The notes: generated from the sequence alone by a model not told the origin. 43,305 nt of DNA from Pseudomonadota bacterium (GCA_021324075.1 JAJPJW010000025.1:1-43305), one strand, 5' to 3'; numbered from the stretch's first letter, positions 5,451-15,382 are shown. Numbers and translations: made by a program.

Positions 5451-5852
5451 CTAATTTACCAGCAACAGGGTCCAAAGAGCCGCGTTGCAGGCATGTCCTG
5501 TCCAACAGACGCGGCATTCCAGCTTGTCGCGCAGGAGAATCCAGGCCAGCCAGAGGGTGAGGCCAAAAGCGAAGGTTGCGGCGCCCAAAAGCAGGGGATG
5601 GGGCCAGTGAAGGTAAAGCCCCAGACCCAGCAGGGGATAGTAAAAAACCCCGAACAGGGAATTGGGCGGGCCGAGCAAGGCGGCGTTCTTGGTGCGGAAA
5701 AGCACCTGGCAACCGCCCGCTTCCAGCTTGCAGACGTTGGGGCCGGTCAGGAAGGCCGGCAGAGTCCGGTAACGGCCATAAAGGGCGATGGCGGCCGCGA
5801 CGAATCCAATTCCCAATACCGTCCAAAGGATCAGCGCTAAGAGTCCTGTCAT
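5451..5852 (-). CDS. VKOR-family membrane quinone/disulfide oxidoreductase
   Basis: 133-residue integral membrane protein resembling the vitamin K epoxide reductase family, which uses quinone to make disulfides. Four elements match: a loop pair Cys41-x6-Cys48, a conserved Asn-Ser (N64-S65) in the PPNSLFG segment, a CxxC (Cys113-Arg-Val-Cys116) near the last membrane helix, and four hydrophobic segments. A further Cys122 follows the CxxC. Bacterial VKORs are often longer or fused to a thioredoxin domain; none is present here. The start ATG (5850-5852) overlaps the stop of the upstream acyltransferase gene as ATGA, so the two are translationally coupled. It is the last gene of the leftward operon. 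Confidence 0.8.
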   Translation of the reverse strand: MTGLLALILWTVLGIGFVAAAIALYGRYRTLPAFLTGPNVCKLEAGGCQVLFRTKNAALLGPPNSLFGVFYYPLLGLGLYLHWPHPLLLGAATFAFGLTLWLAWILLRDKLECRVCWTGHACNAALWTLLLVN

Positions 5853-6820
5853 GGTTGTACTCCCATCAAGGGCCAGACCACCCCGGCCAAAAAGGACCGG
5901 TGGAAGAGGAGGGGCAAGGGTGCGACGAGCCAAAAGAGAATCCAAGCCAGGCCCGCCCGACCCCGCAGCCTTATTCCCTTCGCTCCCATCCAGCGCTCTA
6001 AGATTACCAACCCGCCGTGGAGAAGGAAATAAGCCAGGGGGCCCCCATAACCTGCGTTGACCGGCAGGCTGATGGAAACCTCGTGCAGGATTCCCGAAAA
6101 TCCGAAAGCCCCCAGCAGCCCAACCCAGGCAGGAAAGGCTTTTTTCATCGGGCCATAGGCCGCCACCGCGGTCATTTCCCCGAAACCGATGTTCCAGCGA
6201 TGGGCCCAGAAATCCCCCAGGTTTTGGGCCTCAAAGGGATTCTGGAAAAGGGCGCCACAGTCGAATCCTTGCCGCCTCCAAAAAGCCGTGGCCAGGTTGA
6301 AGAGTCCGAAATGTACGGTCAGGCTGGCGCCGATGAAGAAGGGCGGGGTGGCCCAAAAAAGCGAAGAGGTCCTGCCCCAGAAGAAATGGGATAAAAAGAA
6401 GAAACCGGTGCCGGCCGCCAAAGCCATAAGGCCCTGAAGAGCATGTTTGCCCCAACCGGGCAAAGCTTGGGCGGCCCGCTTTCGGAAAACCGCAGGCTGC
6501 ATTCCGGGCCAGGCCAGGGCAAAGGCCAGATAGCCGGGAAAGGGCAGGGAGGATTCCTCGGGAGCCGGGTTTACGGCCAAGACCGCCTTCATGCCCAGAA
6601 GGACCGCCCCGATGAGGGAGAGCATCCGGAACCCAGCGGGGGAAGTGAGGGTGAAGAAGTTCGCCGCAGTTGTTCCCGCCAGCATCAGGCCCCAGGCGCG
6701 AAGGCGGGCCCGGGCCGGGTTGTCCAGCAACTGGAGCCCGTAGCCCGCCACTAATACCATCAGCAGCAAGGCGCCCATCTGCGCCAGGGCCAAGGGGTTT
6801 GCCGGAAAGTAAGCGTCCAT
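5849..6820 (-). CDS. MBOAT / wax-synthase-like membrane acyltransferase
   Basis: 323-residue polytopic membrane protein with about eight hydrophobic segments. Two motifs place it near the wax ester synthase branch of the MBOAT family: the NPFEAQNLGDFWAHRWN block (about residue 205), typical of the FWxxRWN signature, and a distal histidine within a membrane helix in SGILHEVSISLP. Family members move an acyl chain from acyl-CoA to an alcohol or lipid acceptor; the acceptor here is unknown. The ATG at 6818-6820 is chosen because it comes 2 nt after the stop of the preceding gene, consistent with the tight packing of the operon, and because the longer frame would run deep into that gene. Wax synthesis should not be assumed. 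Confidence 0.72.
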   Translation of the reverse strand: MDAYFPANPLALAQMGALLLMVLVAGYGLQLLDNPARARLRAWGLMLAGTTAANFFTLTSPAGFRMLSLIGAVLLGMKAVLAVNPAPEESSLPFPGYLAFALAWPGMQPAVFRKRAAQALPGWGKHALQGLMALAAGTGFFFLSHFFWGRTSSLFWATPPFFIGASLTVHFGLFNLATAFWRRQGFDCGALFQNPFEAQNLGDFWAHRWNIGFGEMTAVAAYGPMKKAFPAWVGLLGAFGFSGILHEVSISLPVNAGYGGPLAYFLLHGGLVILERWMGAKGIRLRGRAGLAWILFWLVAPLPLLFHRSFLAGVVWPLMGVQP

Positions 6821-6822
6821 GG

Positions 6823-7227
6823 TCAGCCTCCGGTCGCGGTAAGAAACCCGTAAACCGCCGTCAAATAGGTAAAGAGACCCACCAACGATCTTTCCGCAAA
6901 GATCCATTGGCCCCCTTTGGGCCGGATGGAGCGGTCATAATAAAAAAATTGGATGAGCAGCCTCGCCCCCCAATAAAGGGTGATATAGCCGGCCACCGCG
7001 CGGGCCAGGGGTGCGCCGTCCAGGAGCCATTCGGGATGAAGACAGGAAAGAAGGCCCATCAACAGGTTAGTGGCCCAGATATAAGCGGCATAGGTATGGA
7101 AAAGCTGGCGAACAATGGGACGCATCCGCTTCGTGTCGCGGGCCCAATGGAGCACCCTGGGAACCGCCAGGCTGGCGAAGGCTAGGCCGATTTGGCCTAA
7201 GCCGGCTAGGATCAGGAGCATCTTCAT
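6823..7227 (-). CDS. Small integral membrane protein of unknown function
   Basis: 134-residue protein with four predicted membrane helices: starts at LLILAGLGQIGLAFASLAV, then around YAAYIWATNLLMGLLS, a third around AVAGYITLYWGARLL, and LVGLFTYLTAVYGFL at the end. I do not recognise the family. Its start codon overlaps the stop of the COQ7-like gene (ATGA at 7224-7227) and GGAGGTG lies upstream, so it is coupled to that gene. Polar residues inside the membrane segments (Tyr-Tyr-Asp after helix three) could line a lipid or quinone pocket, but this is speculative. Confidence 0.75.
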   Translation of the reverse strand: MKMLLILAGLGQIGLAFASLAVPRVLHWARDTKRMRPIVRQLFHTYAAYIWATNLLMGLLSCLHPEWLLDGAPLARAVAGYITLYWGARLLIQFFYYDRSIRPKGGQWIFAERSLVGLFTYLTAVYGFLTATGG

Positions 7228-7760
7228 GGCCGCACCTCCTGCCGGATTTTTCGCATCGGCGGCCCCCAGCGGAGGACCCATTGGACCAGGGGCAGCAGGG
7301 GGTGTCCCTCTACCTTGTTCATAAAGAAAAGCTCATGCTCCCGCTCGGTTGCGGTCATGGCATGGAGCTCCCGGGCCATTTCCTTCAAACCCAGCTTCCG
7401 GGCGTGATAGGCCGCGTCCTCATATTGGTCCACGTTGCCGAATTCGAGGCGCCCGGCGAAATACATGGGGAAGAACCAGCCGCTGACCGGGCAAAGGGCC
7501 CCTAAGACCGCGCCGACGGTCCCAATGGCCATTTCCAGGGGGAAGAAGGGCTTGCCGCCCAGGGCGGTCAACATGCGTTTCACCGCCGCCCGGTGCACCC
7601 ATTCCTCCTTCTCAATGCGGCGGATGCCCTCCACTTCGTCCGGCGTAGTGACGGCCTGCCAGTGGCCGTGGTAGGCCCGGGCCGCGCCCAGTTCCCCGGC
7701 ATGGGCGTATTGGAGGATCTCAACCAACTTCCTGCGGTGGAACTCCCTGTCCTTTTTCAT
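7224..7760 (-). CDS. COQ7-like ferritin-superfamily di-iron protein
   Basis: 178-residue protein with the metal-ligand layout of a ferritin-like four-helix di-iron carboxylate protein: Glu in GELGAARAYHGH, ExxH in EEWVHR, Glu in YEDAAYHAR and ExxH in EREHE. The order and spacing best resemble COQ7 demethoxyubiquinone hydroxylases, which hydroxylate a quinone ring at the membrane, and the middle segment (GTVGAVLGALCPVSGWFFPMY) is hydrophobic as in that family. No other ubiquinone genes are nearby, so a different lipid or quinone-like substrate is possible. The ATG at 7760 is chosen for AAGGAGGA a few bases upstream; an upstream in-frame ATG would lie inside the operator region. First gene of the leftward operon. 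Confidence 0.65.
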   Translation of the reverse strand: MKKDREFHRRKLVEILQYAHAGELGAARAYHGHWQAVTTPDEVEGIRRIEKEEWVHRAAVKRMLTALGGKPFFPLEMAIGTVGAVLGALCPVSGWFFPMYFAGRLEFGNVDQYEDAAYHARKLGLKEMARELHAMTATEREHELFFMNKVEGHPLLPLVQWVLRWGPPMRKIRQEVRP

Positions 7761-7858
7761 ACGGATCCTCCTTTTAATAAACCCATAAAGGGATCTGTAT
7801 AGTACCGATCCCATTATTTTTGTTCAAAGTACGAAGATCGGCACATAGGGCACCTTCG

Positions 7859-7933
7859 AATATTTGAACATGTTCAAATTATCACTTGACGCCGGGGCCC
7901 TGTCAAGCTAATATTTGAACATGTTCAAATATT
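7859..7933. promoter_or_regulatory. Divergent back-to-back promoters with twin palindromic operators
   Basis: Two copies of the palindrome ATTTGAACATGTTCAAAT sit at 7862-7879 and 7913-7930; the second extends to a perfect 24-bp palindrome (7910-7933). Their centres are 51 bp apart, about five helical turns. Rightward promoter: TTGACG (7886-7891), 17 nt, TAATAT (7909-7914). Leftward promoter: TTGACA (7906-7901), 17 nt, GATAAT (7883-7878). The two -35 boxes lie inside and each -10 overlaps one operator, so a bound dimer at either site would block one promoter. A half-site TGTTCAAA occurs at 7821-7828. The TetR protein at 8951-9637 is the likely binder; this is inferred from location. Confidence 0.85.
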
Positions 7934-7951
7934 GATGAAAGGGAGGATGCC

Positions 7952-8341
7952 ATGAACACGATTGTCATTACCTACCTGGTTTATGTAACCCTAAGCCTGG
8001 CCCTTACGGTCTGGGTGGCGCGGGTACTCTTCAAACACGGGGCGAGGTTTCTGGTCGACGCCATGGGTGGGGACAAGGAACTGGCTGATTCCTGGAACCA
8101 CCTGCTGGTGGTGGGTTTTTACCTGATCAACCTGGGCTACGTGGCCTTCAACTTGAAGGTGGGGACGCCCGTAGACAATCCCCAGCAGGCCATCGAGGTG
8201 CTGGCCCAGCAGATGGGGCTGGTATTGCTGGTCTTGGGCGCCATGCATTTCTTCAATCTTTACGGCATCAACCGTCTCCGCCGCAAAAAGACGGCCGAGG
8301 CGCAAGCCGCGCCGGTGAAGAAACAACTGAAGATGGTTTGA
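7952..8341 (+). CDS. Small integral membrane protein of unknown function
   Basis: 129-residue protein with three or four hydrophobic helices: an N-terminal one (IVITYLVYVTLSLALTVW), one around LLVVGFYLINLGYVAFNL, and one around MGLVLLVLGAMHFFNLY, followed by a basic cytoplasmic tail. I do not recognise a named family. AGGGAGG precedes the ATG. It is the first gene of the rightward operon, 19 nt after the second operator, so its expression should be under direct control of that site. Similar size and character to the membrane protein at 6823-7227 on the opposite arm, but without obvious sequence identity. Confidence 0.78.
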   Translation: MNTIVITYLVYVTLSLALTVWVARVLFKHGARFLVDAMGGDKELADSWNHLLVVGFYLINLGYVAFNLKVGTPVDNPQQAIEVLAQQMGLVLLVLGAMHFFNLYGINRLRRKKTAEAQAAPVKKQLKMV

Positions 8342-8351
8342 AAGGCAGGAT

Positions 8352-8954
8352 ATGCGGATCATTCTTGGACGATTCAACCTGGAGGACGAAAAGGTCCGGG
8401 CCGATTGGGGCCGGCGGGAATCCTCCGCCGACCTGGGGTTCAAGGGCCGGGGGAAACACGACCGGTACCAAATGGAGCTTCCCCCGGTCCCCGGGTGGCC
8501 CACGGAAAAACTTTTTAACTGGGCGGCCGACAGGGTGGCCTGTTACCAGGTTTTCCCGCCCAGCCGCATGAAGGCCCGGGTGGATGCGCCCGGGGGAAGG
8601 GTCGCCCGTGGCGCCACCATCCTGCAGGGGGTCTTCGTGGGGCCTTTCCGGCTCCGGATGGCCGACAGGGTTTTGGAAGTCTTCGAGGGCGGCAGCCGGA
8701 AGGAAAGATGGATGGGATTCACCTATGGAACCCTTGAAGGCCACGCGGAAAAGGGGATCGAAACCTTCCGGGTGGTTTGGAACAAGGCGGCGGGTAAGGT
8801 CCACTTCTCCATGGAAGCCTGGTCCCTACCGGGCCATTGGTTGGTGCGGCTTTTCTACCCCTGGGCGCGGTGGGTGCAGAAAAGGGCGGGAAGGGAAGCC
8901 ATGGATTATATGAAAGAACGGTTGGAAGGCTTCGGGAAAGGGGAAAAACCATGA
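8352..8954 (+). CDS. DUF1990-family protein
   Basis: 200-residue protein resembling the DUF1990 family, recognised by the FTYGTLEGHAEKGIETFRV segment (about residues 119-137) and the C-terminal FSMEAWSLPGHWLVRL block; no catalytic function is established for the family. The N-terminal half holds the family-typical VPGWPTEKLFNWAADRVACYQVFPP. Start ATG at 8352 has AAAGG upstream, 10 nt after the previous stop. Its stop overlaps the start of the TetR gene as ATGA (8951-8954), so regulator and DUF1990 protein are co-translated. DUF1990 next to a TIGR01777 epimerase-like gene suggests a shared pathway. Confidence 0.75.
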   Translation: MRIILGRFNLEDEKVRADWGRRESSADLGFKGRGKHDRYQMELPPVPGWPTEKLFNWAADRVACYQVFPPSRMKARVDAPGGRVARGATILQGVFVGPFRLRMADRVLEVFEGGSRKERWMGFTYGTLEGHAEKGIETFRVVWNKAAGKVHFSMEAWSLPGHWLVRLFYPWARWVQKRAGREAMDYMKERLEGFGKGEKP

Positions 8955-9637
8955 CCACGGAAAAAACAAAAACGGAAAAGATACAAAAGGCGGACAAGAC
9001 CCGGCGGAGGCTTTTGGAGATCTCCCTGGACCTTTTCCTCAAGCACGGCTACGAAAAGACCACCATGCGGGAAATCGCCAAGGCGGTCGGCCTGGCCCCA
9101 GGGGCGGCCTATTACCACTTCGAGGCCAAAGAGCACATCATCCAGGCTTTTTACGAGATGTCCTTTGAGGAACACCTGCCCGAGGTGGAGCGGGTGCTGG
9201 CCAAGGAAATGGACCTGAAGAAGCTCATCGCGGGCGTGACCCGGGCCCATATGACGATCGCGGAAAAATACCACGCCATCTCCAAGGCGCTCTTCGCCAC
9301 CGCGGGCAACCCGGACAACGTCCTTTCGCCCTTCAGCGCACAGTCCAAGGCCTTGAGGGACCGAAATATTGAAATCTACCGTCGGGTGATGGAGACCACC
9401 ACCAGCCCGGTGCCGGCCAAACTCAGGGAAAAGCTCCCCGAGATCCTCTGGATGTACAAGATGGGCATGATCCTCTACTGGATCTACGACCGCTCGCCCC
9501 GCCAGAGGAAAACCTTCCAGTTGATCGACCAGAGCTCCATCCTGATCGCCCGGCTCATCCGGCTTTCCAACCTGCCGCTCCTGAAGGGTTTTTCCGAGCA
9601 GATCGTGAAGATGTTCTACAAGTACAAGTTCTACTGA
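8951..9637 (+). CDS. TetR-family transcriptional regulator
   Basis: 228-residue one-component regulator. After a Lys-rich N-terminal stretch comes a TetR HTH (about residues 18-65): RRRLLEISLDLFLKHGYEKTTMREIAKAVGLAPGAAYYHFEAKEHI is read in overlapping pieces, with the recognition helix around VGLAPGAAYYHF. The remaining helices form a ligand-binding domain with no recognisable subfamily. Overlaps the DUF1990 stop as ATGA, and the TIGR01777 gene follows after 11 nt. Being inside the operon fits autoregulation through the palindromes at 7862-7879 and 7910-7933. A lipid or acyl-CoA inducer is plausible from the neighbours but unproven. Confidence 0.93.
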   Translation: MTTEKTKTEKIQKADKTRRRLLEISLDLFLKHGYEKTTMREIAKAVGLAPGAAYYHFEAKEHIIQAFYEMSFEEHLPEVERVLAKEMDLKKLIAGVTRAHMTIAEKYHAISKALFATAGNPDNVLSPFSAQSKALRDRNIEIYRRVMETTTSPVPAKLREKLPEILWMYKMGMILYWIYDRSPRQRKTFQLIDQSSILIARLIRLSNLPLLKGFSEQIVKMFYKYKFY

Positions 9638-9648
9638 GGAGGTCCGTC

Positions 9649-10557
9649 ATGCAAAAGGTCATCCTTGCGGGAGGCAGTGGGTTCATCGGCCGGGCCCTGG
9701 CCAAACGGTTCCTGGCCCAAGGGGACCGGGTGGCCGTTTTGGGGCGGGGTAGTACCGGCCCCGGCCCACAGGTGGAATTTATCCACTGGGATGGAAAAAC
9801 CCCGGGGGACTGGGCCCAATCCCTCGAAGGGGCGGACCTCCTGGTCAACCTGGCGGGCAAAAGCGTGGACTGCCGTTATAACGAAAAAAATAAAAAGGCC
9901 ATCCTGGATTCCCGGGTGGAACCCACCCGAGTGCTGGGAGAGGCGGTCGGCCGGTCCAAAAATCCGCCGAAGCTTTGGGTCAATTTGAGCACCGCCACCA
10001 TCTACCGCCATGCCGAGGACCGGCCCATGGACGACGAGACGGGGGAAATCGGAAGCGGGTTTTCCGTCAACGTGGCCACCGCCTGGGAAAAAGCCTTTTT
10101 CGACAGCATCACCCCCCGGACCCGCAAGGCGGCCCTTCGGGCGGCCATCGTCTTGGGGGAAGGCGGCGGAGTCTGGTCCCCTTTAAAAACCCTGGTGCGG
10201 CTGGGTTTGGGCGGCCCCCAGGGAAACGGCCGGCAGATGTTCAGCTGGATCCATGAGGAAGACCTTTTCGGGATTATCCGTTTCCTCCAGGTCCGTGAGG
10301 ATATGAGCGGTGCCGTCAATGCCGCGGCGCCCCATCCCCTGCCCAACCGCGAGTTGATGGCCGCCTTCCGAAAGGCCCTACACCGGCCCTTCGGGCTTCC
10401 CACCCCGGCCTGGCTTTTGGAAATCGGCGCTTTTTTGATCCGCACGGAGACGGAGCTGCTGTTGAAAAGCCGGTGGGTCCTGTCCACCCGCCTGGAAAAG
10501 GCCAGCTACCGGTTCCGCCACCCCGATTTGCGGTCGACCTTGGCGGGTCTGGCTTAG
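9649..10557 (+). CDS. TIGR01777-family NAD(P)-dependent epimerase-like protein
   Basis: 302-residue extended short-chain dehydrogenase/reductase of the TIGR01777 (YfcH/SDR39U1) group. The nucleotide-binding GGSGFIGRALAKRF is at residues 8-21, LVNLAGKSVDCRYN around residue 65 is diagnostic, and the ending with RFRHPDLRSTLAGL is typical of the family. A classic YxxxK is not present at the usual place (STATIYRHAEDR instead), as in other members. Substrate is unknown. The start is supported by GAGGAGGT upstream. It sits in the rightward operon after the TetR gene. Confidence 0.9.
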   Translation: MQKVILAGGSGFIGRALAKRFLAQGDRVAVLGRGSTGPGPQVEFIHWDGKTPGDWAQSLEGADLLVNLAGKSVDCRYNEKNKKAILDSRVEPTRVLGEAVGRSKNPPKLWVNLSTATIYRHAEDRPMDDETGEIGSGFSVNVATAWEKAFFDSITPRTRKAALRAAIVLGEGGGVWSPLKTLVRLGLGGPQGNGRQMFSWIHEEDLFGIIRFLQVREDMSGAVNAAAPHPLPNRELMAAFRKALHRPFGLPTPAWLLEIGAFLIRTETELLLKSRWVLSTRLEKASYRFRHPDLRSTLAGLA

Positions 10558-10575
10558 CGGGGATAAAATAGGCCC

Positions 10576-10992
10576 ATGCTGCAAAAGATCAGCCTGAGCA
10601 TCATGGTATTTACTTATCTCTTCGCGGGGCTGGCCCATATCGTCCGGGCCGACTACTACCTTGCCTTCATTCCCCTCTTCATCCCCCAGGCCCGGTGGCT
10701 GGTGCTCCTGTCGGGCGGGATCCAGATCCTGCTGGCGGTGCTTCTGGTCTTTCCAAAGACCCGCCGGGGGGCCTGCTATGGCATCCTGCTGCTTTGGAGC
10801 GTTTCCTTGCCGGTCAACTTCCTGATGGTCGCAAGCGGCGGAACCGGCACCGCCTACAACGCCTGGCAATTGGGGGCGCTCATCCCTTTCCATTTGCTCT
10901 TGATGTTTTGGGCTTTCGTCCATATCCGGATAGAGACCCGAAAGTCCAAACCCTCCCTGGGCTTAAACCTTCAATCCCTCGGCCGGGAATAA
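10576..10992 (+). CDS. DoxX-like membrane protein
   Basis: 138-residue protein with four hydrophobic segments. The opening (MVFTYLFAGLAHIVRADYYLAFIPLF) and the middle (WLVLLSGGIQILLAVLLVFPKTR) resemble DoxX-like membrane proteins, a group with proposed links to thiol or quinone redox. It lacks cysteines except one, so it is unlikely to form a disulfide-relay centre itself. 18 nt after the previous gene and same direction, so probably the last gene of the rightward operon; the ribosome binding site is weak. Downstream 10993-11238 holds no gene; a perfect 8-bp inverted repeat with a 2-nt centre (11082-11099) contains an SD-like sequence of unclear meaning. Confidence 0.7.
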   Translation: MLQKISLSIMVFTYLFAGLAHIVRADYYLAFIPLFIPQARWLVLLSGGIQILLAVLLVFPKTRRGACYGILLLWSVSLPVNFLMVASGGTGTAYNAWQLGALIPFHLLLMFWAFVHIRIETRKSKPSLGLNLQSLGRE

Positions 10993-14120: not shown

Positions 14121-14885
14121 ATGGTTTTGCGGACGTTTCTCACCTTTCGGAACCTCCAAGTCAGCCTTTTCCTGGCGATCCTGGCCGTCGACGGCCTGGT
14201 GGACGGGCTTTTCCTCAAGCTGGTGCGCTTCCGCGCCCTGACCGGCTGGGAGGACGAGATCAATTTCGATTCCCTCGTTTTCAATTGGAAATTGATCCAC
14301 AACCTGGCCCTGGGCGTGACGGGTGCGGCCATGGCGGCGGTCGTCGCCAGTTTTTTGCTCCCGGGTTTTTACCGGAGGGCCGGATGGGCCCTGGCCCTGG
14401 TTTTCCTGGCCGGCGTGTTTTACCCCTGGGGCCTGGCTTTCCATTACGTAAGGTCGTTTCATTTCATCCTGCTTTTCGGTATCGTAATCAACGCTTACGG
14501 GTTCCTGGTCCTGGCCTTTTTCAAGCGGCAGGCGGGGCTTTTGGTCAAACAGGCTGGGGGCGGTAAAAGTATGGAAGGTTTCAAGGAAATCCCGGTGGAA
14601 GAGGCCTATGTCCTCCTGCAGTCGGGCAAGGCCGTCTTCGTGGACGTGCGGGACGGCGGGTCCTACCAGGCCGCCCATGTGAAGGGGGCCCTGCACCTGA
14701 GCGACGCCACGATCCAGGATTTCGTGGCCAGGACGGACAAGGCCAAGCCGGTGGTCTGTTACTGTTACCACGGCCACACCAGCCAGGGCGCGGCGGCCTA
14801 CCTGGTGGACCAGGGCTTCAAGGAAGTCTACAGCGTGATGGGCGGCTTCGAGGAATGGCGCCGGACGCAGGATTTTGAAAGTTAA
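14121..14885 (+). CDS. Membrane domain fused to GlpE-like rhodanese
   Basis: 254-residue protein in two parts. Residues 1-150 contain four hydrophobic segments with no family I recognise. Residues 151-254 form a complete single rhodanese domain very close to GlpE, with the persulfide Cys in CYCYHGHTSQGAAAYL and the ending YSVMGGFEEWR. GlpE transfers sulfane sulfur from thiosulfate to cyanide or thioredoxin. The first ATG (14121) abuts the previous stop codon. An internal ATG at 14571 (residue 151), exactly at the domain start, could initiate a soluble GlpE from the same message, although the upstream GGGGCGG is a modest ribosome binding site. Confidence 0.82.
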   Translation: MVLRTFLTFRNLQVSLFLAILAVDGLVDGLFLKLVRFRALTGWEDEINFDSLVFNWKLIHNLALGVTGAAMAAVVASFLLPGFYRRAGWALALVFLAGVFYPWGLAFHYVRSFHFILLFGIVINAYGFLVLAFFKRQAGLLVKQAGGGKSMEGFKEIPVEEAYVLLQSGKAVFVDVRDGGSYQAAHVKGALHLSDATIQDFVARTDKAKPVVCYCYHGHTSQGAAAYLVDQGFKEVYSVMGGFEEWRRTQDFES

Positions 14886-14899
14886 TCCGAGGTAAGACC

Positions 14900-15382
14900 A
14901 TGGGTGTCTGGGATAAGCCTTACAAATACTGGCTGATGAAGGCCGAGCCGGACGTCTACCCGGTCGAGCAGTGGAAGAAGGACAAGGTCACCTTCTGGGA
15001 CGGGGTGCGCAATTACACGGCCCGAAACTTCATGCGCGACCGGATGAAGAAGGGCCAGGGGATGTTCTTCTACTATTCGGGCGGCAAGCCCAGCGGCATC
15101 GCGGGGGTGGGGGAAATCGCCAAGGAAGGCTATCCGGACCACACGGCCTTCGACCCCAAGGACGTACATTACGACCCCAAGAGCGACCGGTCGAATCCCA
15201 GCTGGTACATGGTGGACGTGAAATACGTGAAGGCCTGCAAGCAGGTGATCCCGCTGGACTTCCTGAAGACCGTGCCGGGCCTCAAGAATATGGCCCTTTT
15301 CAAGTATTCCCGCCTCTCCGTCCAGCCCGTCACCGAAGAAGAATGGAAGATTATCAACCGCCTGATCGACGGCCAGAAGTAA
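14900..15382 (+). CDS. EVE-domain protein (thymocyte nuclear protein 1 type)
   Basis: 160-residue protein consisting of one EVE domain, a PUA-like fold thought to bind modified bases in nucleic acids. The family pattern is clear: YWLMKAEPDVYPVEQ at the start, FWDGVRNYTARNFMRDRMKKG, and FFYYSGG..GIAGVGEI, then SWYMVDVKY. Length is normal for stand-alone EVE proteins. ATG at 14900 follows the preceding stop by 14 nt with GAGG upstream, and the YncE-like gene follows after 11 nt. The natural ligand is not known. No restriction or methylation genes are close by. Confidence 0.9.
   Translation: MGVWDKPYKYWLMKAEPDVYPVEQWKKDKVTFWDGVRNYTARNFMRDRMKKGQGMFFYYSGGKPSGIAGVGEIAKEGYPDHTAFDPKDVHYDPKSDRSNPSWYMVDVKYVKACKQVIPLDFLKTVPGLKNMALFKYSRLSVQPVTEEEWKIINRLIDGQK

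Follow-up and report, generated by a model that had tools for sequence, protein, structure and literature searches.

The closest described relative of the regulator reported here is the TetR_C_23 protein of PDB entry 3c07, which we take to be SCO4850. For SCO4850-type regulators only a structure was found, and the papers found describe no operator, ligand or regulon. Here, an operator and targets are proposed for a relative encoded in the window, a 43,305-bp stretch of DNA from a Pseudomonadota bacterium (GCA_021324075.1, JAJPJW010000025.1:1-43305). The closest operons, annotated merely as hypothetical protein, DUF393 and TetR, occur in Streptomyces, Acidobacteriota and Obscuribacterales. They share the operator pair, the membrane protein gene mem129, the TetR gene and the gene order with the window, but encode DUF393 where the window encodes DUF1990, and the window adds a second, divergent arm. 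Literature on SCO4850, DUF1990, YndJ, TIGR01777/DUF393, TetR_C_23, the operator sequence and MBOAT_2 yielded no description of this system, in line with the first-pass annotation, which had called the locus a candidate undescribed system. The + arm belongs to a widespread, apparently undescribed TetR regulon.

Nine tightly packed ORFs were confirmed at 5451–10992, all where the first-pass annotation had placed them. They form two back-to-back, divergent arms separated by 191 bp. On the - arm, the VKOR and MBOAT genes overlap by 4 nt, MBOAT and mem134 are 2 nt apart, and mem134 and the COQ7-like gene overlap by 4 nt. Intergenic distances on the + arm are, in order, 10, -4, 11 and 18 nt. The family labels VKOR, MBOAT, COQ7, DUF1990, TetR and TIGR01777 given at first pass score above cut-off; the DoxX-like label was upheld only in part, the match being to MauE and sub-threshold. 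No Pfam family exceeds its cut-off for the two membrane proteins, mem134 and mem129. Elsewhere in the window (14121–15382), a rhodanese-domain gene lies beside an EVE-domain gene downstream of glycosyltransferases; these are ordinary neighbours outside the regulon.

Between the arms, two identical 21-bp palindromic copies of AATATTTGAACATGTTCAAAT, not mentioned at first pass, flank two overlapping divergent promoters. The leftward transcript is expected to start within operator 1 (7859–7879, no strand assigned), which sits upstream of the rightward -35 element and has counterparts in Acidobacteriota and in genome G003. Operator 2 (7910–7930, no strand assigned), 51 bp away, spans the expected rightward start and is upstream of the leftward -35 element. 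The promoter-like site TTGACG-17-TAATAT (7886–7914, + strand) reads rightward between the operators and is overlapped, in a mirror-symmetric geometry also present in G003, by the leftward TTGACA-17-GATAAT (7878–7906, - strand). Each -35 element starts 10 bp past one operator core and each -10 element ends 2 bp before the other. Either start site should therefore fall inside an operator, and repressor binding should shut down both arms. Two copies of the 16-bp operator core are present in the window, where 0.12 were expected, and no double site arose in 200 resampled windows. G003 (L006), another genus of the same family, retains eight of the nine genes in order, lacking DUF1990, and has two operators and two promoters in the same geometry. 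Because of this conserved order and the two identical palindromic operators, the layout is not attributed to chance.

The exact 14-bp operator core occurs nowhere else in the same genome. The sole site with one mismatch is on contig C119 (L003:767-1722). The palindrome there, TTGAACAAGTTCAA, is near-identical and separates an MMPL/RND-like transporter gene from the gene for a different TetR-like protein, which suggests another TetR with a related operator.

The + arm begins with mem129 (7952–8341, + strand), the hallmark of the regulon, which encodes a predicted three-helix membrane protein conserved across 16 aligned sequences. Its Pfam result was DUF308 only, below threshold, and a single-sequence structure model was of low quality. 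A match to bacteriorhodopsin (E 0.003) was set aside as similarity of membrane composition, the alignment having no conserved lysine suited to retinal. Profiles gave no support for kinship of mem129 with mem134 or with the small membrane protein adjoining a mem134-like gene at locus L121. The DUF1990 protein follows (8352–8954, + strand; Pfam, 100.9 bits, cut-off 23) in the slot held in other phyla by DUF393 (DCC1-like), copies of which retain CxxC. The regulator P0007 (228 aa; 8951–9637, + strand) has TetR_N and TetR_C_23 domains (Pfam, 68.6 bits, cut-off 29.1) and matches 3c07 over its full length (E 1.9e-49, query 11-223). A TIGR01777-family SDR oxidoreductase (9649–10557, + strand; NCBIfam, 262.1 bits, cut-off 207.35) and a small membrane protein, P0009 (10576–10992, + strand), complete the arm. 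P0009 is weakly MauE/DoxX-like, below the curated Pfam cut-off (MauE 18.5, cut-off 27), is 38% identical to its G003 counterpart, and had no profile match to a DoxX_3 protein. As the mem129 regulon is defined here, two GAACNNGTTC palindromes flank the promoter of the first gene, and mem129 is followed in the same operon by a full-length TetR_C_23 relative; both were found in the window.

Recurrence was assessed from both the operator and the gene. The operator pattern GAACNNGTTCAAN(26-50)TTGAACNNGTTC was found in 19 of 396 Acidobacteriota genomes and a reversed control pattern in none of the 396. A full-length TetR relative adjoins 18 of the 19 matches, mem129 adjoins 14, and DUF393 adjoins 7. 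A mem129 profile run on the same genomes gave 20 complete copies, one copy cut by a contig end being excluded. Eighteen of these have an adjacent TetR gene and two GAACNNGTTC sites, and the other two (L108, L112) have neither. No other result argues as strongly for recognition of these sites by this TetR. The frequency of the regulon in Acidobacteriota is about 5%. On a Streptomyces cynarae plasmid (NZ_CP106794.1), mem129 (47% identical), DUF393 and TetR genes are consecutive, with two TTGAACNNGTTCAA sites upstream. That plasmid carries the operator-mem129-DUF393 module in two copies (L025, L026), one of them near an IS5 transposase and without a TetR gene. An Obscuribacterales (Melainabacteria) genome encodes mem129, DUF393 and TetR, with two sites around a TTGACA-17-TATCAT promoter. 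Three weak mem129 matches in a Cyanobacteriota/Melainabacteria sample (E about 1e-4, within ORFs of more than 1000 aa) were dismissed. Viral contigs scanned for mem129 and mem134, and plasmids searched for the COQ7-like and MBOAT genes, gave no match.

Several variants were observed. In acidobacterium G621, a paired site (L071) precedes a gene for a 432-aa membrane protein without a Pfam match, followed by a phospholipid-methyltransferase-like (PEMT) gene; the TetR gene is on a separate contig (L115), which suggests that this TetR acts in trans. At two Acidobacteriota loci (L066:7331-8041 and L072:7301-8017), the TetR frame may start inside the second operator, where GAACATGTTCAAA would encode MFK..., and the repressor mRNA may be leaderless or nearly so. 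A lone TTTGAACATGTTCAAA site lies on contig C207 of G010 (L073:469), from another family of the window's phylum; this contig has no TetR of the window's type and no mem129.

Judged from these neighbourhoods, the widespread core is the operator pair with mem129 and TetR, often joined by DUF393 or TIGR01777, in at least four phyla. By the same comparison the four-gene - arm is a local addition, complete in one other genus only (two genera, one family). With mem134 or the COQ7-like gene in only two of 45 genomes surveyed in the phylum, the window's and G003, the locus has a patchy distribution and is probably mobile. Co-occurrence in other genomes, the test set at first pass, was borne out by the module in G003, Acidobacteriota, a melainabacterium and a Streptomyces plasmid. 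The nine genes as a single conserved unit were ruled out: the widespread core is smaller, and COQ7-like relatives lie on 12 genome contigs without the other eight genes.

The COQ7-like protein of the - arm (178 aa; 7224–7760, - strand) matches PF03232 (Pfam, 32.7 bits, cut-off 23.5), and its six di-iron ligands (E23, E53, H56, E106, E139 and H142) are invariant across 12 aligned sequences. Structure comparison of its AlphaFold2 model (mean pLDDT 89.7) retrieved ferritin-like proteins as well as human COQ7 (TM 0.66, Foldseek E 5.4e-3). The ferritin-like di-iron fold and six ligands are held in common with COQ7/DMQ hydroxylases, and human COQ7 (7ssp) is among the top sequence and fold matches, but the protein is far below the cut-off of the NCBIfam equivalog NF033656 (12.5 against 180 bits). 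By this equivalog test the protein is not the ubiquinone enzyme, DMQ monooxygenase; the first-pass COQ7-like label stands for the Pfam family and ligands. The protein belongs to a subfamily of its own, found in Acidobacteriota, Obscuribacterales and the window's phylum. In the fetched Pyrinomonadaceae and Obscuribacterales loci, none of the other eight genes is near the COQ7-like gene. At three Pyrinomonadaceae/Acidobacteria loci (L013, L014, L015), the distance from mqnE (aminofutalosine synthase, menaquinone synthesis; match above the curated cut-off) to the downstream COQ7-like gene is at most about 3 kb, which hints at a link to quinones. A member of an LpxL-like acyltransferase family follows the COQ7-like gene at L013, L014, L017, L018 and L024.

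The unnamed membrane protein family mem134 (6823–7227, - strand) has no Pfam assignment and is 71% identical in G003. Distant relatives adjoin DUF2071, DoxX_3, YndJ and DCC1-like genes. In one acidobacterium (L120:6421-8263), mem134-like, YndJ and DCC1-like genes are consecutive, which ties mem134 to the uncharacterised YndJ family. The neighbouring MBOAT_2 O-acyltransferase (5849–6820, - strand; Pfam, 31.7 bits, cut-off 25) is of the wax-synthase/DGAT1 type, with FW...WN and HE motifs and conserved N239 and H275 (longest-ORF numbering) that align with DGAT1; it differs in that the bacterial protein is short and has mem134 as a membrane partner. Its start is most likely at 6820 (M30 of the longest ORF), since this methionine is invariant in all three relatives, and the 2-nt gap to mem134 is counted from there and not from 6907. 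The VKOR-like protein (5451–5852, - strand; Pfam, 40.4 bits, cut-off 27.5) has a conserved CxxC (C113xxC116) and two loop cysteines (C41, C48).

Partners of the regulon elsewhere include SRPBCC, PEMT, NAD(P)-binding and DCC1-like domains. TIGR01777 genes lie directly after or near the TetR gene in the window, G003, L058, L069, L070 and L109, and a second SDR is present at L057 and L058. L060, L061 and L066 encode membrane proteins that match SRPBCC/Polyketide_cyc2, in part with scores below cut-off. The accessory genes point to a theme of hydrophobic-ligand binding, NAD(P) redox and thiol redox.

We propose that the TetR_C_23 repressor binds two TTTGAACNNGTTCAAA operators bracketing the promoter region. 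Through the overlapping divergent promoters, it would silence and release both arms at once, its own gene among them (autoregulation). Release would follow binding of a hydrophobic or oxidised membrane compound to the C-terminal domain of TetR, and the induced proteins would modify that compound class in the membrane. The COQ7-like di-iron protein would oxygenate a quinone or another lipophilic compound; its binding or reduction would fall to the TIGR01777 SDR (SRPBCC-type partners elsewhere), acyl capping of a hydroxyl to the MBOAT enzyme, and thiol/quinone redox to VKOR (DUF393 in relatives). None of the regulon's genes points to one particular substrate. We give the whole proposal, a TetR-switched modification of a membrane quinone/lipid class, an even chance; the ligand, substrate and order of chemical steps are offered tentatively and are rather less probable. 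A lipid/quinone function is plausible given the intact di-iron, MBOAT and VKOR residues, mqnE near COQ7-like genes and the SRPBCC/SDR partners elsewhere. The first-pass quinone/lipid interpretation is retained as a theme, detached from the nine-gene conserved unit. A bolder version is a long shot: O2-dependent hydroxylation and then O-acylation of a menaquinone-type or other isoprenoid lipid would give an undescribed membrane compound, with TetR sensing quinone/lipid state and the core acting as a cross-phylum membrane-state sensor module.

Many similarly shaped TetR regulons respond to exogenous toxins. The present one could be a detoxification or stress regulon, in which TetR would sense an exogenous hydrophobic compound (plant phenolic, antibiotic or naphthoquinone) and the enzymes would oxidise, reduce and acylate it to inactivation without building a membrane lipid. 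The sparse, patchy spread (2 of 45 phylum genomes, about 5% of Acidobacteriota), the two copies on the Streptomyces plasmid and the interchangeable accessory enzymes would all fit, whereas the conserved core has no efflux pump and COQ7-like relatives lie near the menaquinone gene mqnE; we consider this alternative unlikely, though a serious contender. Ligand-induced modification of a membrane quinone/lipid, or else detoxification of a quinone-like compound, is our reasoned guess at the function.

The + arm type is present alone in other phyla, and in G621, whose regulon lies elsewhere in the genome, mem134 and MBOAT are adjacent without an operator. These observations favour back-to-back but separate operons, with TetR governing the + arm only and the COQ7/mem134/MBOAT/VKOR operon independent. 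Against this, promoters of the same geometry run in both directions within one operator pair in two genera, and the gene order of both arms is kept in G003. Promoter scores (of 12) were mostly 8–11 towards the gene and 6–8 the opposite way in single-direction Acidobacteriota loci. In the window and in G003, whose promoters have identical geometry, they were 9–11 in each direction. Among the loci scored, only these two had matching-geometry promoters in both directions; the Streptomyces module had no clear consensus promoter. Separate operons are improbable. The anatomy (operator pair, divergent promoters) supports the first-pass claim of one regulon under its own TetR, and we strongly infer that this TetR represses both arms through a single switch.

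The full Rex consensus is TTGTGAANNNNTTCACAA. It is very improbable that the sites belong to Rex or another regulator with a related palindrome: the TGAANNNNTTCA core also occurs in a paper on Streptomyces Rex sites (PMC5355995), but the same TetR type adjoins 18 of the 19 paired sites, mem129 copies without TetR also lack sites, and Rex requires G right before TGAA, whereas 40 of 54 sites here have T at that position (-2) and 2 have G. That this TetR is the binding protein, and that both arms are repressed, is highly probable. The sequence evidence gives good support to shared regulation and autoregulation, and to a widely conserved core.

So far as the papers found show, this TetR subfamily had a structure only; it now gains a precise proposed operator and a defined target set. 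The unassigned families mem129, mem134, DUF1990, DUF393 and TIGR01777 are tied into one regulon across at least four phyla, and their common role becomes testable in culturable Streptomyces. The mirror-image promoter within the same operator pair suggests a route by which an existing repressor may capture a second operon.
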